64,000 nucleotides of DNA, taken from Maribacter ulvicola (GTDB lineage: Bacteria; Bacteroidota; Bacteroidia; Flavobacteriales; Flavobacteriaceae). The translations under genes were made by a program, and so were the position numbers. Positions 3,824 to 13,943 of the stretch are shown here, piece after piece (position 1 is the stretch's first letter; every line of letters starts with the position of its first letter). Location: positions 248,001 through 312,000 of the forward strand of contig NZ_FTMA01000002.1 of assembly GCF_900155985.1 (NCBI RefSeq), given 5' to 3'. The notes under the pieces were generated by a model. The model was not told the origin of the DNA and did no database searches. It worked only from the letters and a program-made list of their open reading frames with translations.

Positions 3824-5800
3824 ATGAATTATACCGATTTTAAAGTTGCTCAAGATGATAAGTTGACACTTTATAAAGCAATGCTTAAACCTCGTATGAT
3901 AGAGGAGAAAATGTTGATTTTATTACGACAAGGTAAAATTTCTAAATGGTTTAGTGGTATTGGTCAAGAGGCAATTTCTGTTGGGGTTGCTTCTGCCTTA
4001 AGCCGTGACGAATACATATTGCCAATGCATAGAAACCTTGGGGTGTTTACTACAAGAAAAATACCGTTGTACAGGTTATTTGCGCAGTGGCAAGGTAAGG
4101 CGAGCGGATTTACCCAAGGGCGTGATCGTAGTTTTCATTTTGGAACACAAGATTTTAAGATTGTGGGGATGATCTCGCATTTGGGGCCACAATTAGGTGT
4201 GGCAGACGGAATAGCGCTTGCACATAAATTAAAAAAAGAAAAGAAGGTAACCGCTGTTTTTACAGGAGAGGGGGCTACGAGCGAAGGGGATTTTCATGAA
4301 GCGTTGAACGTTGCTTCCGTATGGGATTTACCGGTACTTTTTTGCGTAGAGAATAATGGCTATGGCTTATCTACACCTACAAACGAGCAATTTCGTTGTG
4401 AAAATATTGCGGATAAGGGTGCCGGCTATGGCATGGAGTCTCATATTATAGATGGTAATAATATTTTAGAGGTCTATTTTAAAGTCGCCCACTTGGTGAG
4501 GGATATGAGAATAAACCCTAGACCGGTGTTGTTAGAATTTAAGACCTTTCGCATGCGTGGGCACGAAGAGGCAAGCGGCACAAAATATGTACCTCAAGAA
4601 CTTTTAGACACTTGGGCGAAGAAGGATCCGTTAGCGAATTACACAAAGTATTTATTAGGCGAAAAGCTGTTGACCGAGGAAAGTATAGCGCGTTATAAGG
4701 CAAATATTCAGGCGGAAATTGATGAGCATCTAAGAAAAGCCTCTGACGAAGATGCTATAGTGCCTAATGAAAGTAAAGAATTAAATGAGGTGTATCAAAA
4801 AATTGACTTCAAGGAGGTTAAACCAATCAGTGCTGTAGCTAATATACGCTTGGTCGATGCTATATCAGAGGGATTGCGGCAATCTATGAAGAAATTCGAT
4901 AATCTTGTTATCATGGGGCAAGATGTTGCGGAATATGGTGGTGTCTTTAAAATAACAGATGGCTTTGTCAATGATTTTGGTAAAGAGCGTGTACGTAATA
5001 CACCAATTTGTGAATCGGCAATAGTAGCTGCGGCAATGGGGTTGTCCATTAACGGAATGAAGGCTGTTATGGAAATGCAATTTGCAGATTTTGCAAGTAG
5101 CGGTTTTAATCCTATTGTCAACTATTTAGCGAAGAGTTATTACAGATGGGGAGAAAAAGCAGATGTGGTAATTAGAATGCCTTGTGGTGGTGGAGTAGCC
5201 GCCGGTCCTTTTCATTCTCAGACGAATGAGGCCTGGTTTACCAAAACTCCAGGTCTAAAAGTCGTATACCCTGCCTATCCTTATGATGCAAAAGGATTGT
5301 TGGCTACCGCTATTGAAGACCCTAATCCTGTATTGTTTTTTGAACATAAAGGTTTGTATAGAAGTCTATATCAAGAAGTGCCGGTAGATTATTATACCTT
5401 ACCGCTGGGTAAGGCCAGTCTTTTAAAACAAGGAGATCAGATTACCATTGTAACGTATGGTGCCGGTGTGCATTGGGCTTTGGAAACTTTAGAAAACAAT
5501 CCAGATATACGTGCAGATCTTTTAGATTTACGAAGCTTACAGCCATTAGATACTAAAGCTATTTATGATTCCGTGGTAAGAACCGGAAAGCTAATTATAC
5601 TTCAAGAAGACAGTCTGTTTGGGGGCATTGCCAGTGACATCTCTGCCATGGTGATGGAGAATTGTTTTGAGTATTTAGATGGTCCAATTAAAAGAGTAGG
5701 TAGTTTAGAAACCCCCATTCCTTTTAATTCCAAGCTAGAGCAGCAATATCTTGCCAAGTCTAGGTTTGAATCAGATTTAAGAGAACTTATCGCCTATTAG
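3824..5800 (+). CDS. 2-oxoacid dehydrogenase E1, alpha and beta subunits fused
   Basis: 658 residues. The first ~330 form an E1-alpha domain with the thiamine-diphosphate/Mg motif (GEGATSEGDFHEALN near residue 147, then ENNGYGLST). From about residue 336 (ANIRLVDAISEGL) an E1-beta transketolase-type domain follows, ending with the C-terminal domain (LDLRSLQPLD and LIILQEDS). This is the decarboxylating subunit of a branched-chain or related 2-oxoacid dehydrogenase complex. Alpha-beta fusion is common in Bacteroidota. E2 and E3 genes are not in the window. Transcribed alone, away from the divergent oxygenase gene; the 122-base gap between them should hold both promoters. Confidence 0.93.
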   Translation: MNYTDFKVAQDDKLTLYKAMLKPRMIEEKMLILLRQGKISKWFSGIGQEAISVGVASALSRDEYILPMHRNLGVFTTRKIPLYRLFAQWQGKASGFTQGRDRSFHFGTQDFKIVGMISHLGPQLGVADGIALAHKLKKEKKVTAVFTGEGATSEGDFHEALNVASVWDLPVLFCVENNGYGLSTPTNEQFRCENIADKGAGYGMESHIIDGNNILEVYFKVAHLVRDMRINPRPVLLEFKTFRMRGHEEASGTKYVPQELLDTWAKKDPLANYTKYLLGEKLLTEESIARYKANIQAEIDEHLRKASDEDAIVPNESKELNEVYQKIDFKEVKPISAVANIRLVDAISEGLRQSMKKFDNLVIMGQDVAEYGGVFKITDGFVNDFGKERVRNTPICESAIVAAAMGLSINGMKAVMEMQFADFASSGFNPIVNYLAKSYYRWGEKADVVIRMPCGGGVAAGPFHSQTNEAWFTKTPGLKVVYPAYPYDAKGLLATAIEDPNPVLFFEHKGLYRSLYQEVPVDYYTLPLGKASLLKQGDQITIVTYGAGVHWALETLENNPDIRADLLDLRSLQPLDTKAIYDSVVRTGKLIILQEDSLFGGIASDISAMVMENCFEYLDGPIKRVGSLETPIPFNSKLEQQYLAKSRFESDLRELIAY

Positions 5801-6454: not shown

Positions 6455-7147
6455 ATGAAAACAATGATATTACGCAGAACTAGTTACATTCTTGCTCTTG
6501 CCATGGTAATGAGCTGTAGTACGGTAAAAAACGCAAATAAAACACAAAAAGGGGCGGTAATAGGTGCATCTGGTGGTGCCGTTATTGGCGGAATCTTAGG
6601 AAATAACGTCGGTAGTGGAAATAATACTGCCTTAGGTGCTATTTTAGGTGCTGCCATAGGTGGTGCTGCCGGTGGGTATATTGGTAATAGAATGGACCGT
6701 CAAGCAGAACGTATTGAAGAAGAAATTCCTGGTGCAGAGGTTAAGCGTGTTGGTGAAGGTATCAATGTAACGTTTAATGAAGATGCCGGTGTGTATTTTG
6801 ATACCAACAAATCTAATGTTCAAGGTACTTCAGCTACTACTTTAAATAAATTGGTAAATATTTTTAAAGAATATCCTAAGTCTAATGTTTTGGTAGAAGG
6901 TCATACCGATAGTGCTGGTGCGGAAGAATATAATTTAAAACTGTCTAAGCAAAGAGCAGAGTCCGTTACCAACTACCTAATTAGCAAAGGTATCGATGCT
7001 AGTCGTTTTGATACCAAATGGTATGGTGAAATGCAGCCGGTAGGTGATAATAGCACTACAGCAGGCAAAGCTAAAAATAGACGTGTAGAGTTGGCTATTG
7101 TAGCTAGTGAGTCTTTAAAACAAGAAGCACAAACACAAACCAACTAA
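6455..7147 (+). CDS. OmpA-family lipoprotein with glycine zipper
   Basis: 230 residues. A lipobox (VMSCS) lies near residue 21, a glycine-rich zipper region (GAVIGASGGAVIGGILGNN and similar) spans about 32-78, and an OmpA C-terminal peptidoglycan-binding domain covers about 105-222, with VYFDTNKSNVQ, VEGHTDSAG, LSKQRAESV and NRRVELAI. The protein should anchor the outer membrane to peptidoglycan. Followed by a strong intrinsic terminator. Confidence 0.92.
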   Translation: MKTMILRRTSYILALAMVMSCSTVKNANKTQKGAVIGASGGAVIGGILGNNVGSGNNTALGAILGAAIGGAAGGYIGNRMDRQAERIEEEIPGAEVKRVGEGINVTFNEDAGVYFDTNKSNVQGTSATTLNKLVNIFKEYPKSNVLVEGHTDSAGAEEYNLKLSKQRAESVTNYLISKGIDASRFDTKWYGEMQPVGDNSTTAGKAKNRRVELAIVASESLKQEAQTQTN

Positions 7148-7180
7148 GAGATACAAATTTTAGTATTGAGTTAAAATTAA

Positions 7181-7208
7181 AGCCCTGCAAATGCAGGGCT
7201 TTTTTTGT
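7181..7208 (+). terminator. Intrinsic terminator after the OmpA lipoprotein gene
   Basis: Perfect 9-bp stem AGCCCTGCA/TGCAGGGCT with a 2-base nominal loop, followed by seven T. It separates the OmpA gene from the polyketide operon and overlaps the first possible ATG (7191) of the next reading frame, which argues for a downstream start of that gene. Confidence 0.93.
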
Positions 7209-7229
7209 TTTTGGTGTAACTTCCATGCA

Positions 7230-8351
7230 GTGAAAGAGCATAGCATAGTAATTATTGGAGGTGGATTGGCAGGTTTGACTGCCGCCATTCATTTGTCTTT
7301 GGAAGGCTTGGATGTTGCCGTTATTGAAATGAAACCATTACCGCATCATAAAGTATGTGGTGAATATGTATCCAAGGAAATACAACCGTATTTAAAACGG
7401 TTAGGGATAGACCTTAAATTTGAGGGAGCTGTAGACATCTCAAAGTTTCAAATAAGCACTCAAGACGGCTACATAGTGGAAACCGATTTGCCATTGGGCG
7501 GATTCGGGATTAGTAGATATGCGCTTGATCATTTGCTATATCAAAGAGCACAGGAATTGGGTGTTCAGTTTTATTTTGAGAAAGTGATTGAAACAGTTTT
7601 CAAAGAAGACCTTTTTACCATTAAGACCAAGTCCGGATGCTATTCTTCTAAAATAGCCATTGGGGCTTATGGTAAACGTTCTGTTCTTGACAAAACTTTA
7701 GATAGGGATTTCAGTAAGAGAAAGCAATCTTGGTTGGCTGTAAAAGCACATTATAGCATAGCCGATTTCCCTAAGAATTTAGTGGCATTGCATAATTTTA
7801 AGGGCGGTTATGGCGGACTATCACAAACAGAATCTGGAGCTGTCAATTTCTGCTACCTGGCTCATTATGATAGTTTTAAGAAGTATAAAGATGTAGAAAG
7901 TTTTAATACGGAGGTAGTTGCCGAAAACCCGTTTTTAAAGCAGTTTTTATCAAGTGCCAAGCCCATATTTGACCAGCCTATGACCATAGCCCAAATAGCA
8001 TTCGATAAAAAAGAAAATGTTGTGGATCACATGCTTATGTGCGGAGATACTGCGGGACTCATACATCCTTTATGTGGTAATGGTATGGCAATGGCTATTC
8101 ATAGTGCAAAAATAGCTTCTGAATTTATTGTACGTTTTTTTAAAGATGCAGATTATTCCAGAAATATTTTAGAACAAGATTATAAGGGGGCCTGGGCAAA
8201 AGCTTTTAAAAAACGTCTGTGGTTCGGCAGAAAATTACAAGGTATTCTAATGAACAAAACATGGGTTTCGGTAGGAATAAAATCCGTTGGAAGGTCCAAT
8301 TCAATATTGAAGTTTATTATTTCTAAAACCCATGGGGACTTGATAGCATAA
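7230..8351 (+). CDS. FAD-dependent oxidoreductase of the polyketide operon (geranylgeranyl reductase-like)
   Basis: About 373 residues from a GTG start at 7230. The frame is open back to an ATG at 7191, but that ATG lies inside the terminator stem, so GTG (VKEHSIVIIGGG) is preferred. The Rossmann FAD motif GGGLAGLTAAIHLS is at the very N-terminus, KVCGEYVSKE is typical of the geranylgeranyl reductase/tryptophan halogenase-like group, and CGDTAGLIHPLCGNGMA is the second FAD contact. Likely role: oxidation or hydroxylation of the polyketide product, or reduction of a side chain. First gene of a seven-gene operon; its stop overlaps the next start by one base (TAATG). Confidence 0.85.
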   Translation: MKEHSIVIIGGGLAGLTAAIHLSLEGLDVAVIEMKPLPHHKVCGEYVSKEIQPYLKRLGIDLKFEGAVDISKFQISTQDGYIVETDLPLGGFGISRYALDHLLYQRAQELGVQFYFEKVIETVFKEDLFTIKTKSGCYSSKIAIGAYGKRSVLDKTLDRDFSKRKQSWLAVKAHYSIADFPKNLVALHNFKGGYGGLSQTESGAVNFCYLAHYDSFKKYKDVESFNTEVVAENPFLKQFLSSAKPIFDQPMTIAQIAFDKKENVVDHMLMCGDTAGLIHPLCGNGMAMAIHSAKIASEFIVRFFKDADYSRNILEQDYKGAWAKAFKKRLWFGRKLQGILMNKTWVSVGIKSVGRSNSILKFIISKTHGDLIA

Positions 8352-9058
8352 TGAGAGATTTTACACATAGAAGTAGTGAAGTGGAGCTTATGGATACCTT
8401 TTCTGGTCCCATAAATGAGTTGGAAACCATACTACAAGACATCAATAGGGTAAATAAATTGCTGGGTGGTTATCGTATTACTTTAAGTGCTGTTTTTGAG
8501 TTGATTAGATTGGGTTTTAAGGAATCGTATACGATTTTAGATATGGGTTGCGCGGAAGGAACCATGCTAAGAAAGTTGGCAGATGTGGCTAGAAAACGAA
8601 ATATAAAACTAAAATTGATCGGAGTAGATTTTAATGAGCAAGGCTTGCAATTGGCACGGCAATATTCCAAATATTATCCAGAGATCAGTTATGTAAAGAC
8701 CGATATTTTAAAGTCCGATTTTTCTGAATGGGATATAGATGTAGTAATGACCACATTGACCTTGCATCATTTTACGGATAAAGGAGTGCTTAAGTTTGTA
8801 AATCGGTATGTAGAAATAGCAAAATTGGGCGTAGTGATAAATGATTTGGAGCGGAGTCCCGTTGCCTATTATTTATTTAAGGCATTCAGTTTCTTCTTTA
8901 TTAAAACGGAAATTGCCAAAAAAGACGGCCTGTTATCCATCCGTAGGGCATTTAAAAAGGAAGAATTACAGCATTTTGCAGGTCAGGTAACCCAGGCATC
9001 TCATCACATCAAATGGAAATGGGCATTTAGATATGCATGGATTTTAAAAAAGAAATAG
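8351..9058 (+). CDS. SAM-dependent methyltransferase
   Basis: 235 residues, class I methyltransferase. Motif I is ILDMGCAEG at 62-70, the acidic strand GVDFN follows after a lysine-rich helix, and TTLTLHHFTDKG corresponds to motif IV/post-IV. The pattern (TLHHF) is close to UbiE-like and small-molecule methyltransferases. Translationally coupled with the flavoprotein upstream (one-base overlap). Next to a type III polyketide synthase the simplest reading is O- or C-methylation of an aromatic polyketide. Confidence 0.85.
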   Translation: MRDFTHRSSEVELMDTFSGPINELETILQDINRVNKLLGGYRITLSAVFELIRLGFKESYTILDMGCAEGTMLRKLADVARKRNIKLKLIGVDFNEQGLQLARQYSKYYPEISYVKTDILKSDFSEWDIDVVMTTLTLHHFTDKGVLKFVNRYVEIAKLGVVINDLERSPVAYYLFKAFSFFFIKTEIAKKDGLLSIRRAFKKEELQHFAGQVTQASHHIKWKWAFRYAWILKKK

Positions 9059-9082
9059 GTAGATTGAAGATTAAGAACAACT

Positions 9083-10138
9083 ATGAATCATACAAGAATT
9101 GTTAGTGTAACCAAAGAATTGCCACCGTATTCTAGAGATACTAAGGATATTATTCCCCTTGTAGAATTCTGGCTGAGCGAACAAGAGGAGCGTTTCTCTA
9201 GAAAGGTCGTTAAGATTTTTGAAGGTGCGGCGGTAGATAAACGGTATTCAATTATGCCACCAGAAGATGTATTTGTAACCACTTCTTTTGAAGATAAAAA
9301 CAAAATATATAGTAAGGAAGCCAAGCGAATGGGAGTAAATGTGTTAAAAAACGCACTAGAGAAAAGTAATTGGACCGCTACTTCTTTAGATTATATCATT
9401 ACGGTAAGTTGTACGGGTATTATGATTCCGTCTTTAGATGCATATTTGATCAATGAATTGGGTATGCGGCAAGATGTTGTAAGGCTCCCGGTAACAGAAA
9501 TGGGTTGCGCCGCTGGAGTATCCGGACTTATTTATGCCCATAACTTCTTAAAATCAAATCCAGGTAAGCGTATTGCTTTGGTTGCTGTTGAGAGTCCCAC
9601 TGCAACCTTTCAGCTAGAAGATTTTTCCATGGCAAATATGGTAAGTGCCGCTATTTTTGGAGATGGCGCAGCTTGTGTTTTACTATCATCTGAAGAAGAT
9701 GCGGTTGGTCCAAAGATCATTGGGGAAGAAATGTATCACTTTAAGGACGCTACCCAAATGATGGGGTTTGATCTAACCAATCACGGATTAAAGCTGATTC
9801 TTGATCCCGCAGTGCCAGAAACCATTTCCGATCACTTTGGGGATATCGTACATCCATTTCTAGAAAAGTATGGGAGTGATATTGAGAACGTAGACCACTT
9901 AATATTTCATCCCGGAGGAAAGAAAATAGTACAGACAGTAGAATCGCTTTTTGGTGCTTTAGGTAAGAATATAATTGATACAAGAGAGGTGTTGCGTTTG
10001 TACGGTAATATGAGTAGCGCTACTGTTTTATACGTGTTAGAGCGTTTCTTAGAAAAAGATATAGCAGCAGGTGAACAGGGATTAATATTGAGTTTTGGTC
10101 CCGGGTTCTCTGCACAACGGGTTTTAATAGAATGGTAA
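9083..10138 (+). CDS. Type III polyketide synthase (chalcone/stilbene synthase family)
   Basis: 351 residues, usual length for bacterial type III enzymes. The catalytic triad is complete: Cys142 (TEMGCAAGVSGL), His276 (HLIFHPGGKK) and Asn309 (LRLYGNMSSATV), and GFGPG-type end signature appears as LSFGPGFSAQ. These homodimers load an acyl-CoA or acyl-ACP, extend it with malonyl units on one Cys and cyclise to resorcinols, phloroglucinols or pyrones. The following fatty-acid genes suggest that the starter is a dedicated long acyl chain. Product cannot be read from the sequence. Confidence 0.94.
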   Translation: MNHTRIVSVTKELPPYSRDTKDIIPLVEFWLSEQEERFSRKVVKIFEGAAVDKRYSIMPPEDVFVTTSFEDKNKIYSKEAKRMGVNVLKNALEKSNWTATSLDYIITVSCTGIMIPSLDAYLINELGMRQDVVRLPVTEMGCAAGVSGLIYAHNFLKSNPGKRIALVAVESPTATFQLEDFSMANMVSAAIFGDGAACVLLSSEEDAVGPKIIGEEMYHFKDATQMMGFDLTNHGLKLILDPAVPETISDHFGDIVHPFLEKYGSDIENVDHLIFHPGGKKIVQTVESLFGALGKNIIDTREVLRLYGNMSSATVLYVLERFLEKDIAAGEQGLILSFGPGFSAQRVLIEW

Positions 10139-10156
10139 AACAATCAAAAAGTAATT

Positions 10157-10939
10157 ATGAAAAGTAAGCATTGGGCATTGATTTTAGGAGGAAGTAGCGG
10201 TCTAGGTCTAGCTACGGCAAAGAAATTGGCTCGTCACGGGTACCATATTTTAATCATGCACCGTGATCGCCGTGCCGCTATGGATGATATTGAAAAAGGA
10301 TTCGATGAAATTCGTGGCTTTGGTAATTCATTTTTAGCCATGAACGTAGATGTGTTGAATGCCGATAAACGCTCAGATATTATTTCTAACATTCAACAGC
10401 AACTCCCACAAGGACATCAAATAAAAGTGTTGATACATAGTGTGGCAAAAGGAACGTTGAAGCCCATGCATTCAGAAAGCGGACCAACGTTGACAGCTAC
10501 CGATTTTAGAATCACTTTTGATGCCATGGCACTGAGTTTATATGATTGGACCAAAGCATTGGCAACGGCGGGGTTGTTTGCTGAAGATACGCGCATCATA
10601 TCATTTACAAGTGAAGGGAATACGAAGGCATTACCAAATTATGGAGCTGTTTCTGTGGCTAAAGTGGCTTTAGAGGCATTGACCAGAAGTATTGCGTTAG
10701 AGTTTGCACCAATGGGTATAAAGGCGAATTGCATACAGGCAGGTATTACCATGACCAAATCCTTTTCTATGATTCCCGGATACGAAAAGATAAAGGAAAA
10801 TGCGTTAAAAAAGAATCCGCAGAACAGATTAACACTGCCCGAAGACGTTGCAAATGCAGTGTATTTGCTAACTATGGATGAAGCAAAATGGATTACCGGA
10901 ACCGTGATTAAAGTGGATGGTGGAGAAAGTTTGATGTAA
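10157..10939 (+). CDS. SDR enoyl-ACP reductase-like (FabI/FabL type)
   Basis: 260 residues. The N-terminal nucleotide site is GGSSGLGLATAKKLA. The catalytic region reads NYGAVSVAKVALEA, with Tyr162 and Lys169 spaced YX6K as in enoyl-ACP reductases of the FabI/FabL group rather than YX3K of ketoreductases, and the flanking TKALPNY matches the FabI layout. The second FabI tyrosine position is Ser152 here. VDGG near the C-terminus is typical of SDRs. Probable role: reduction of the enoyl step in making the acyl starter. Some ketoreductase activity cannot be excluded; no separate ketoreductase gene is in the operon. Confidence 0.82.
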   Translation: MKSKHWALILGGSSGLGLATAKKLARHGYHILIMHRDRRAAMDDIEKGFDEIRGFGNSFLAMNVDVLNADKRSDIISNIQQQLPQGHQIKVLIHSVAKGTLKPMHSESGPTLTATDFRITFDAMALSLYDWTKALATAGLFAEDTRIISFTSEGNTKALPNYGAVSVAKVALEALTRSIALEFAPMGIKANCIQAGITMTKSFSMIPGYEKIKENALKKNPQNRLTLPEDVANAVYLLTMDEAKWITGTVIKVDGGESLM

Positions 10940-10943
10940 TATA

Positions 10944-11399
10944 ATGGTGATGAAAGAATCTTATGATTGGATATTGAACCGCTTGCCCTACACAGAACCA
11001 TTTCTTTATGTAGAGGAGATTAGTTATGTAAATGATAAAGGTGCGGAAGGCAGTTATCGGTTTTCACCTGATGCCCATTTTTACAAAGGCCATTTTAAAA
11101 ACAATCCTGTTACTCCGGGAGTGCTATTGACCGAATGTTGTGCACAAATTGGCTTGGTATGTTTGGGAATACATCTATTAGGGAAAGAGACGAAATTAGA
11201 AAATATAACCATTGGCATGAGCAGCTCACAAATGGAATTTTTGCTACCCGTTTTTCCGGGGGAATGTGTTAGGGTGGTGTCGGAATTGGTTTACTACCGA
11301 TTTCAAAAATTAAAATGTGAAGTGAAAATGTATGATGAAGATGATAAACTGGTCTGCAAAGGAGTTTTGGCAGGCATGATAGACACAGGAAATGAATAG
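10944..11399 (+). CDS. FabZ-like 3-hydroxyacyl-ACP dehydratase
   Basis: 151 residues, hot-dog fold. Catalytic His50 lies in YKGHFKNNPVTPGVL and Glu64 fourteen residues later in LLTECCAQ, the FabZ spacing. A second in-frame ATG at 10950 is an equally possible start. It ends 8 bases inside the ketosynthase gene (ATGAATAG overlap), so the two are translationally coupled. Should dehydrate hydroxyacyl-ACP in the operon-encoded chain-building cycle. Confidence 0.87.
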   Translation: MVMKESYDWILNRLPYTEPFLYVEEISYVNDKGAEGSYRFSPDAHFYKGHFKNNPVTPGVLLTECCAQIGLVCLGIHLLGKETKLENITIGMSSSQMEFLLPVFPGECVRVVSELVYYRFQKLKCEVKMYDEDDKLVCKGVLAGMIDTGNE

Positions 11400-12669
11400 A
11401 CGTGTTGTAATTACGGGCTTGGGAGTATGTGCGCCAAATGGTGTAGGGCTTACTGATTTCACCAATGCTTTGCTGGATGGTAAAAGCGGACTACGGCATC
11501 AGCCAAATTTAGAGAAGTTGGGCTTTGGTTGTCAAGTAGCGGGAGAACCTTTAGTAAAAGATAAGCTCATAGAATATTATTTTACGCCATTAGAACGTAG
11601 GGGCTTGAATGCTACGGGAATTGTATACGGGGTCATAGCAGGTATAGATGCTTGGAAAGATGCCGGTTTAGAGAAAAATACAACAGATGAACCAAGTTGG
11701 GACCGTGGAGTTATTTTTGGAACAGGAATTTTAGGGGTCGATAAGTTTAGGGAAGCTATTCATTTAATTGATGAAGGAAATGTGCGTAGGCTTGGCAGTA
11801 CTTCGGTAATCCAGACTATGGCAAGCGGCATAAGTGCCTATTTAGGCGGATTGCTAGGTTGTGGAAATCAAGTTACTACGAACTCCGCAGCATGCACTAC
11901 GGGTACCGAGGGTATTATTATGGCCTACGACAGAATTAGTCAGGGTAAGGCTGAAATTATGCTGACAGGTAGTTGTAGCGATAGTGGACCGTATGTATGG
12001 GGTGGTTTTGATGCCATGCGTATTCTACCAAGAGGTTATAATGACAATCCCACAAAAGCAAGCAGGCCTATGAGTGCCACAGCGGGCGGATTTATACCCG
12101 GAAGTGGCGCAGGAGCTTTGGTGCTAGAGTCATTAGAAAGTGCAAAGAAACGTGGAGCACGTATATATGCAGAAGTACTTGGAGGAGAAATCAATAGCGG
12201 TGGTCAAATAGGAGAAGGATCCATGACTGCACCAAATAGTATAGCGGTGCAGCGCTGTATTCGTAATGCCATTACAAATTCGGGAATTGAAGCTTCTGAT
12301 ATTGATGTCATCAACGGACATTTAACCGCAACGTCTAAAGACGGACTGGAAATAGAAAATTGGAGTAAAGCACTGGAAAGAAAATATGATGATTTTCCGT
12401 ATATAAATTCTTTCAAAGGATCGGTGGGTCATTGTTTGGCTGCGGCAGGTAGTATAGAAAGTGTAGCCACAGTTTTACAATTTAAGGAACAGGTGGTTTT
12501 TAAAAATGTAAACTGTGATGATATCCATCCGGAGATTTTAGCAGTCATATCAGAATCTTGCATCCCAAGGGAAACCAAAAGACATCAGTCAAAAATTATC
12601 GCAAAGGCAAGCTTCGGATTCGGAGATGTAAATGCGTGTGTTATTTTTAAATCATTTTCAAAAGAATAA
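11392..12669 (+). CDS. Beta-ketoacyl-ACP synthase (FabF/KAS II-like)
   Basis: 425 residues, thiolase fold. The Cys-His-His triad is present: Cys168 (TNSAACTTGTEG), His310 (NGHLTATSKDGLE) and His347 (GSVGHCLAAAG). The His310 box NGHLTATSKD departs from the common NAHGTGT-x-ND of FabF, indicating a specialised clade rather than the housekeeping enzyme. Role: condensation with malonyl-ACP to build the acyl starter of the neighbouring type III enzyme. Overlaps the dehydratase gene by 8 bases. Confidence 0.9.
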   Translation: MNRRVVITGLGVCAPNGVGLTDFTNALLDGKSGLRHQPNLEKLGFGCQVAGEPLVKDKLIEYYFTPLERRGLNATGIVYGVIAGIDAWKDAGLEKNTTDEPSWDRGVIFGTGILGVDKFREAIHLIDEGNVRRLGSTSVIQTMASGISAYLGGLLGCGNQVTTNSAACTTGTEGIIMAYDRISQGKAEIMLTGSCSDSGPYVWGGFDAMRILPRGYNDNPTKASRPMSATAGGFIPGSGAGALVLESLESAKKRGARIYAEVLGGEINSGGQIGEGSMTAPNSIAVQRCIRNAITNSGIEASDIDVINGHLTATSKDGLEIENWSKALERKYDDFPYINSFKGSVGHCLAAAGSIESVATVLQFKEQVVFKNVNCDDIHPEILAVISESCIPRETKRHQSKIIAKASFGFGDVNACVIFKSFSKE

Positions 12670-12705
12670 ATATATACCAAAAAGTATTTTTAATAAAATT
12701 CACAT

Positions 12706-12960
12706 ATGCTTAAAGAAGAAAAGTATCAGAAATTAAAAGATATAATAAAAATCTATCTGCCGGAAGACGTAGCAGTTACTGACATTGAACAAGACAGTCA
12801 CTTCATGAACCATTTAAATATCAACTCTGCCAATCTTGTGGATATTGTTTTGGATGTTGAAGATGCTTTTGACATCCGCCTAGAAAATGAGGATATGGAA
12901 AAAATGCAAACCGTCAATGACGCCATGGCCATTATAGATACTAAATTGGCAGCAAAATAA
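12706..12960 (+). CDS. Acyl carrier protein, specialised
   Basis: 84 residues, acidic helical ACP. The phosphopantetheine site is Ser41 in LNINSANLVDIVLDVE; the usual Asp before the Ser is Asn here. The following helix VEDAFDIRLENEDMEKM matches helix III/IV of type II ACPs. Ends the polyketide operon 36 bases after the ketosynthase. It should shuttle the growing acyl chain between the ketosynthase, dehydratase and reductase, and possibly hand it to the type III enzyme. Confidence 0.88.
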   Translation: MLKEEKYQKLKDIIKIYLPEDVAVTDIEQDSHFMNHLNINSANLVDIVLDVEDAFDIRLENEDMEKMQTVNDAMAIIDTKLAAK

Positions 12961-12983: not shown

Positions 12984-13943
12984 TTATTTTTTCTCTTTGG
13001 TTAACGTAGAAGCTAAAATGCCAGATATCAATGCTACCGAAATAACGGTCAAAGAAACCCATTCAGGTAAGTGAACATAATGGGAAAACAACATCTTTAA
13101 ACCCACAAAAGCTAAAATAACAACAAGGCTATAATTGATATATCTGAACTTTTCTAGCATTCTTGAAATTAGAAAATACATAGAACGTAATCCTAGAATA
13201 GCTAAGATGTTAGAGCTGAATACAATAAATGGGTCAGCGGTTATTGCCAAAATTGCGGGTATACTGTCTAATGCAAACAGAATATCGGTCAGTTCAATTA
13301 CGATTAAGGCTACAAATAGGGGAGTAGCAGCATTAAGGCCCATTCGTTTTACAAAGAAATCATGACCGTGCATGGTTGTGGTAACCGGGTAAATCTTTTT
13401 AATTTGCCTAAATACGAATGAATTTTTGGGGTCAAAATTATCATCATCACCCTTCAACATATTAAACGCCGTGTAAAGCAAGAATACACCGAATACATAA
13501 ATAATCCATTCAAATTTCGTGATCAGGGCTACGCCGAAAAGAATCATTAAAGCCCTAAAAACGATGGCACCTAAAATTCCCCAAAATAAAACTCGGTGTT
13601 GGTACAAAGGTGGAATTTTAAAAGAGGAGAATATTACCGCAATAACAAAAACGTTGTCTACACTTAGTGAAAGTTCAATTAGATATCCTGTAATATATTT
13701 TAATACAGCATCATTAGGTGATAGGCCCGTTGGGTTCGCAATAATTTCTTCGCTAAAAAGCCAATAGATAACGCCACTAAAAGCAAAGGCTACCGTAACA
13801 AAGATAGCCGTCCAGATACCGGCTTCTTTTGACTTTATAACATGTTCATCCTTATGAAAAACGCCTAAATCCAAGGCTAGGAATATTAGAACTAAGGTGA
13901 TAAATACAATCCAGACTATCATAAAGAAATTTTCAAGCTGCAA
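12984..13943 (-). CDS. TerC-family membrane protein
   Basis: 319 residues with about eight or nine membrane segments. The family's acidic membrane motifs are visible: ELSLSVDNVFVIAVIF near residue 90 and ELTDILFALDSIPAI near 215. TerC/Alx proteins export manganese or protect against metal stress and tellurite. Convergent with the polyketide operon (24 bases between stops); no clear terminator is seen there. Confidence 0.93.
   Translation of the reverse strand: MQLENFFMIVWIVFITLVLIFLALDLGVFHKDEHVIKSKEAGIWTAIFVTVAFAFSGVIYWLFSEEIIANPTGLSPNDAVLKYITGYLIELSLSVDNVFVIAVIFSSFKIPPLYQHRVLFWGILGAIVFRALMILFGVALITKFEWIIYVFGVFLLYTAFNMLKGDDDNFDPKNSFVFRQIKKIYPVTTTMHGHDFFVKRMGLNAATPLFVALIVIELTDILFALDSIPAILAITADPFIVFSSNILAILGLRSMYFLISRMLEKFRYINYSLVVILAFVGLKMLFSHYVHLPEWVSLTVISVALISGILASTLTKEKK

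Follow-up and report, generated by a model that had tools for sequence, protein, structure and literature searches.

Seven genes in a 64,000-nucleotide stretch of Maribacter ulvicola DNA (RefSeq assembly GCF_900155985.1, contig NZ_FTMA01000002.1, positions 248,001 to 312,000; hereafter the window) probably form a phenolic-lipid operon. Located at positions 7230–12960 on the plus strand, they join a tailoring trio of type III polyketide synthase (PKS), methyltransferase (MT) and flavin adenine dinucleotide (FAD)-dependent oxidoreductase to a partial type II fatty-acid synthase (FAS-II) cassette composed of a short-chain dehydrogenase/reductase (SDR), a dehydratase (DH), a ketosynthase (KS) and an acyl carrier protein (ACP); a dedicated acyl-ACP would prime the PKS, leading to an alkylresorcinol or alkylpyrone. 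Of greater interest is the sharing of this cassette with other acyl-consuming systems. The initial annotation, which saw here a type III PKS with its own FAS-II module, is partly supported: it stands in outline with two changes, namely that the FAS-II set is incomplete and relies on host enzymes, and that the cassette is common to other systems.

Gene content and conservation of the operon

Neighboring genes of the seven overlap by at most 8 bp and lie at most 36 bp apart, and open reading frames (ORFs), Pfam and NCBIfam bear out both this packing and the enzymes originally named. The trio opens with an oxidoreductase of the geranylgeranyl-reductase/UbiH-like superfamily (7230–8351; Pfam FAD families and NCBIfam), likely a ring hydroxylase or oxidase, followed by a UbiE-like S-adenosylmethionine MT (8351–9058; Pfam Methyltransf_25, best NCBIfam model PRK06202, below its cut-off); in PDB searches both proteins gave weak matches only. 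The third protein (9083–10138) is a type III PKS by its chalcone/stilbene synthase N and C domains (Pfam Chal_sti_synt), its Cys142/His276/Asn309 triad and its fold matches in the PDB, and its AlphaFold2 model, based on a 21-sequence alignment, has a mean pLDDT of 92.2 and a pTM of 0.92. The cassette is made up of a FabL-like SDR with a Y-x6-K motif (10157–10939; Pfam adh_short_C2), a probable enoyl-ACP reductase (ENR) that is dispensable in relatives, a FabZ-like 3-hydroxyacyl-ACP DH with His50 and Glu64 (10944–11399; Pfam FabA-like), a FabF-like KS of a cassette-specific clade with Cys168, His310 and His347 (11392–12669; Pfam ketoacyl-synt N and C) and a dedicated ACP with Ser41 (12706–12960; Pfam PP-binding).

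The active sites are kept throughout. Homologs were aligned at identity cut-offs of 50% (PKS), 40% (KS), 38% (SDR) and 30% (DH and ACP), the rows including the window and a few genes twice. The PKS triad, reported as intact in the initial annotation, and the SDR Tyr162-x6-Lys169 motif, noted there as YX6K, are present in 64/64 and 58/58 rows, respectively, and the catalytic residues of the KS, the DH and the ACP in 71/71, 74/74 and 66/66.

The gene content of the operon, its conservation and its phylogeny stand on firm ground. A locus search gave 59 loci from named genomes, the nearest in Maribacter with PKS identities of up to 95%; 54 were testable, the sequence reaching 2 kb or more before the PKS and 3.2 kb or more after it, and five truncated ones were dropped. 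Near the PKS, matches to the FAD and MT genes occur in all 54 loci, to DH and KS in 52 each, to ACP in 51 and to SDR in 46, with all six partners present in 45. The gene order is that of the window, so the packing is not due to chance, and the gene-order comparison suggested at the outset thus finds the block kept as a unit. In an independent search of 395 Bacteroidota genomes (PKS at E 1e-20, KS at E 1e-75), the 33 genomes with a PKS match of at least 65% identity are also the 33 with a KS match of at least 60%; in each of them the two genes share contig and strand, separated by 447–1529 bp (one of these KS genes, in G084, has an internal TAA). Eleven genomes of the same family, listed as lacking a PKS match, likewise yield no KS match at these thresholds. 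Over the whole set, 174 genomes have some type III PKS match and 38 a KS match, all 38 lying within the 174. In the PKS tree the 58 operon rows (the window, 37 of the 59 loci, and 20 of 29 loci mapped from the 395-genome search) cluster together, apart from 11 other Bacteroidota type III PKSs and PKS11, with an SH-aLRT (approximate likelihood-ratio test) value of 99 in a quick search with long branches. A plasmid search gave only matches below 60% identity (198 records; 34–36% among the 40 matches listed), and a control with PF00195 yielded no named type III PKS loci.

The left neighbor, conserved and outside the pathway, encodes an OmpA-family protein (6455–7147, plus strand) and the right flank a TerC-family membrane protein (12984–13943, minus strand), as assigned by Pfam and the maps of relatives. 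A plain neighbor effect of a conserved chromosome region is rejected because OmpA and TerC adjoin each other without the operon at L192 (genome G134), one of ten PKS-less genomes with a mapped OmpA locus, an eleventh having no OmpA match; because the operon is set among other neighbors in Flavobacterium-like and other genomes (L202–L208); and because a DH-KS pair is kept even when moved (L171, L172).

Host counterparts and sister forms of the cassette

Trees, which the initial annotation had called for in the case of the KS and the ACP, separate all four cassette proteins from housekeeping enzymes; with the block also conserved, neither of the outcomes that it had named as refuting its view was observed. 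The operon and sister KSs (25 and 5) stand apart from 14 FabF/FabB-type sequences at 100/100, the DHs (21 and 5) from 7 others on the FabZ side at 100/100, the SDRs (16 and 3) from 20 FabG, FabI or other SDRs and 1 FabL at 100/99, and the ACPs (19 and 5) from 11 others at 95/83. Operon members alone are not always separated from the sister forms described below, as the ACP and SDR sisters nest among the operon ones. The curated NCBIfam cut-offs for FabF, FabZ, FabL and ACP are all missed by the operon proteins.

The nearest solved structure to the SDR is Bacillus subtilis FabL, enoyl-ACP reductase III (3oic, E 3.3e-26), which has the Y-x6-K motif in common with it; both features disfavor a ketoreductase (KR) role. 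Compared with FabL itself, the operon SDR is a separate deep branch, among long branches, and reaches 159.4 bits with the NCBIfam FabL model, whose cut-off is 328; the depth of this branch, which joins a long-branch area, is a caveat on its assignment as an ENR and not a KR. In the KSs linked to type III PKSs, the position of FabF F133 (Met counted) is occupied by T, R, S or N in 36/36 sequences and that of F134 by V, S, T or A in at least 35/36. These positions play a role in acyl-chain length, and the substitutions are suggestive only.

Elsewhere the window genome encodes a FabF and an AcpP of its own, together with a FabZ-like domain in a 476-aa frame, a FabG (46.7% identical to Escherichia coli FabG) and a FabI-like protein with 29% identity to that of E. 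coli. None of the seven operon genes encodes a KR, as was noted from the start, and because FabG lies elsewhere in the genome, this gap is most simply explained by shared use of the host FabG, which would supply the β-keto reduction. The FAS-II set described as discrete is therefore distinct and linked, but it is not complete: it is partial because a KR is missing from the operon and the SDR from 19 of the 58 PKS-tree rows, host Fab genes being found elsewhere.

These 19 rows include L059 and L061, which were checked for adjacency only. Among the 29 mapped loci from the 395-genome search, 18 likewise show no SDR adjoining the PKS; SDR absence requires seven changes on the PKS tree, of which strongly supported branches force five. 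SDR-less G068 has no close SDR genome-wide (best E 9.5e-14, 28% identity), and near the L203 operon the opposite strand carries an SDR-family gene with 26% identity. In two Psychroflexus (L059 and L061) genes other than the cassette come after the PKS trio, the KS being retained elsewhere in the genome. The ACP was not found in L062, from a Saprospiraceae metagenome-assembled genome.

In many operons outside the Maribacter group, an eighth gene following the ACP encodes a 4'-phosphopantetheinyl transferase (PPTase). It is present in 8/8 operon loci of a further fetched set, with Pfam ACPS above cut-off in 5/5 of those scanned. A profile built from these eight, which match it by construction, also matches 6/59 loci plus the sister loci L154 and L155, the L154 protein falling just under the Pfam cut-off (24.9 versus 25 bits). 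At this same place, 22/59 loci (L008–L066; e.g. L027:11262-11699) have a member of a family of ~145-aa proteins, absent from the window; the L027 member has no Pfam match.

Relatives of the KS, 46–52% identical, occur in five genomes away from the PKSs of those genomes. At L154 and L155 the same series of genes, SDR-DH-KS-ACP-PPTase, recurs next to DarB (634.8 and 614.7 bits, cut-off 550), with DarG and DarH confirmed in L154; the gene in the DarA position has no model match. At L156–L158, of which L157 alone was scanned, DH-KS-ACP stands with GNAT-like and GT2-like (glycosyltransferase) genes and an SDR is present in L157 only; for the protein GNAT378, no solved structure matched at E 0.01.

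A wider search, with the L154 KS as query, covered 345 genomes, of which 27 matched, and all 16 new places were mapped. Eleven of them, in family groups f3, f56, f59 and f80 (the window being in f1), adjoin genes for a PKS and an MT; the FAD gene is seen in ten (L235 starts inside the operon), the SDR in ten, a labelled ACP in seven and a PPTase in five. The other five are not beside a PKS. On one of these, the short contig L226 (1–5930), SDR-KS-KSIII-DH-ACP-PPTase genes stand beside a FeeM-family gene (PF21926 at 5.1e-30; nearest solved structure 2g0b, FeeM, at E 0.0017), possibly a Bacteroidota locus for N-acyl amino acids. At L225 and L229 (Pfam for L225 only), KS, DH, SDR, ACP and PPTase genes adjoin those for polyphosphate kinase, Ppx/GppA and a histidine phosphatase, with no evident acceptor. 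At L228 and L231 (Pfam for L228 only), KS-ACP-PPTase occurs with PhyH-like oxygenase, glycosyltransferase-like and asparagine-synthase-like genes, and a DH is present in L228, while L231 starts at the KS; these are perhaps loci for an acylated polysaccharide or lipid.

A 52-row KS tree, in which cassette KSs separate from FabF at 100/100, needs six context changes for seven contexts, the minimum possible; it does not give the order of the contexts and carries a long-branch warning. The association with a type III PKS proposed initially thus holds, but it is not specific, since relatives of the cassette are found beside DarB and a FeeM-family gene. With such relatives beside other acyl-using enzymes, it looks like a reusable acyl-supply cassette. 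We propose tentatively, at slightly less than even confidence, that SDR-DH-KS-ACP-PPTase is a portable Bacteroidota acyl-ACP supply cassette plugged into type III PKS, DarB, FeeM-type N-acyl amino acid synthase and GNAT/GT2 lipid loci, with host FabG borrowed, and that its ACP docks directly with the type III PKS, thereby determining the lipid tail.

Proposed pathway and competing explanations

The dedicated ACP would be phosphopantetheinylated and primed, and the acyl chain lengthened by the cassette KS, reduced at the β-keto group by host FabG, dehydrated by the cassette DH and reduced at the enoyl step by the SDR or, where the SDR is lost, by a host ENR. The finished acyl-ACP would be passed to the type III PKS, which would add malonyl units and cyclize the product to a 5-alkylresorcinol or alkylpyrone, and the MT and the FAD enzyme would respectively methylate and oxidize this lipid. 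We infer acyl-ACP priming of the PKS from the enzymes present, their co-inheritance and the sister cassettes; FabG use, chain length, ring type and the order of tailoring are inferred along with it.

Several observations weigh against this pathway. Cassette KS matches (E 1e-75) are missing from 136 of the 174 genomes with a type III PKS (E 1e-20), so type III PKSs often go without the cassette, and the Psychroflexus DH-KS pair (L171, L172) lies apart from the PKS without an adjacent ACP. Besides the SDR losses described above, no second SDR-type gene that might be a KR was found within the BLAST-mapped operons, the ACP is unlabelled in 4 of the 11 PKS-linked loci of the wider search (L227, L230, L235, L237), and the window has no PPTase beside its ACP, with none of the operon type in genome G000 at E 0.01. 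The KS and SDR trees both carry long-branch warnings, the best solved match of the PKS is only 30% identical to it, and we found no metabolite evidence for this operon in the open-licence literature searched.

Because of that low identity the ring type cannot be read from the PKS sequence, and a version of the same pathway in which the ring is an alkyl-α-pyrone or acylphloroglucinol instead of a resorcinol is conceivable, although somewhat unlikely. The best solved neighbor by both sequence and fold is Mycobacterium tuberculosis PKS11, named an α-pyrone synthase, and the best NCBIfam model is DpgA, far below its cut-off; against this, CylI, solved with its resorcinol product, comes next by fold, ahead of tetrahydroxynaphthalene synthase (THNS), and the MT-oxidoreductase trio is tied to resorcinols in the work cited here (PMC10896814, PMC8086630).

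It is also conceivable, but unlikely, that the PKS takes ordinary acyl-CoA or AcpP-bound starters and that the cassette makes a second acyl group (an ester or C-acyl branch) or a separate, co-made lipid. Type III PKS-MT-FAD trios without an adjacent cassette do exist (L160, L169, L170, L173), in genomes that were chosen for holding a sister KS elsewhere, and the many PKS-bearing genomes without a cassette KS, as well as the unlinked Psychroflexus pair, fit this explanation. Pfam detects no acyltransferase among the seven genes, however, and sister cassettes are found next to DarB and a FeeM-family protein, enzymes that take acyl-ACP. For the planctomycete type III PKSs, host CoA-activated fatty acids have been proposed as starters (PMC10896814), in keeping with ordinary starters.

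A further, likewise unlikely possibility is an unsaturated starter: the DH-KS-ACP core would make an enoyl or polyene chain, which the SDR, where present, would saturate in part. DH and KS are indeed found in 52 of the 54 loci and the SDR in 46, several lineages lacking it; on the other hand a host ENR could reduce the chain, as a FabI-like gene is present in five of six genomes tested, and the sixth, SDR-less G068, with no FabI match at E 1e-20, leans neither way. Finally, although the enzymes belong to the same families as those that make ordinary fatty acids, a spare or backup housekeeping set merely lying beside the PKS is highly improbable and is rejected by the separate groups in all four trees, by the missed NCBIfam cut-offs and by the co-occurrence of PKS and KS in the same 33 genomes.

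Operon boundaries and related systems

Upstream of the operon, the OmpA gene is followed by an intrinsic-terminator-like hairpin on the plus strand (7179–7202; 10 pairs, 6 of them G-C, and a T run after them). The ORF of the FAD gene is listed as 7191–8351, but the hairpin spans its beginning, and a GTG codon at 7230 agrees with the start given in the initial annotation; the strong hairpin and T run leave little room for an own promoter ahead of this codon. A sigma-70-type promoter scan was uninformative (19 sites versus 19.7 expected), while terminator-like sites numbered 11 versus 4.8 expected. Upstream, a gene at 3824–5800 resembles by eye a fused E1 α/β branched-chain 2-oxoacid dehydrogenase and occurs in 48/54 loci; as a supplier of branched starters it was set aside, being present also at the operon-less site L192. 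The operon of G677 contains two MT genes (L239:3111-4598), suggesting an extra methylation.

Next to other distant type III PKSs than the four trios mentioned above, a small ICMT-like protein is encoded (ICMT confirmed in L161 and L162 only); L167 and L168, whose ORF maps lack the expected type III PKS, were excluded from the neighborhood counts. In the window, as in all 54 loci, the PKS adjoins MT and FAD oxidoreductase genes, the trio of the hierridin and srs type. Streptomyces griseus srsABC consists of a type III PKS, an MT and a flavin hydroxylase and leads to methylated phenolic lipids or quinones; we know of no starter cassette in it. In Azotobacter vinelandii arsABCD the type III PKS is fed by a large type I FAS of the same operon, whereas by ORFs and Pfam the window operon consists of single-domain enzymes, with no type I FAS among its seven genes. 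A KS domain within a 2222-aa open frame on another contig (G000:C10:177744-178523, L007) may belong to a type I PKS. The cylindrocyclophane starter is made by type I PKS modules, and in this pathway the type III PKS CylI takes a pathway-specific acyl-ACP, as we propose for the window.

Use of ACP-bound substrates by CylI is mentioned in the report on cyanobacterial hidABC, which leads to hierridins and for which a C14 acyl-ACP starter was proposed (PMC8086630). A planctomycete MT-oxidoreductase-type III PKS operon, expressed in Corynebacterium glutamicum, gave pentadecyl- and heptadecylresorcinols, in a report that also names SrsA (PMC10896814). By gene content both systems have the trio of the window; the parts of these reports drawn on here name no dedicated KS/DH/ENR/ACP set, whereas in the window such a cassette is joined downstream (PMC8086630, PMC10896814). 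The operon thus appears, from its genes, to be of a known kind, a hierridin/srs-type trio, with a starter cassette added. In flexirubin and dialkylresorcinol clusters, beside whose DarB, DarG and DarH (L154) or DarB (L155) the sister cassettes stand, the ring is formed by DarB/DarA (PMC3992019); the ring former of the window is instead a type III PKS, and NCBIfam gave no match to a DarB model for any of the seven proteins (for FAD and SDR, among the best 25 matches).

No description of this operon was found in the open-licence literature searched. An Aequorivita type III PKS 69% identical to one of Zobellia lies in a cluster called T3pks-arylpolyene (PMC6139392), and Fulvivirga kasyanovii is credited with one type III PKS, no product being listed in the part of that report cited here (PMC12565237). 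Type III PKS clusters make up ~9% and 10.7% of the gene clusters in two surveys of Flavobacteriaceae, whose cited passages name no product (PMC7440613, PMC10734526). If the proposed pathway is correct, many of these clusters would make a phenolic lipid with a tail set by a dedicated acyl-ACP and not by general metabolism. The cassette would then serve as an off-the-shelf element for directing which starter a type III PKS uses, and its occurrence alongside other acceptors would constitute a natural experiment on ACP recognition by unrelated acyl-consuming enzymes.

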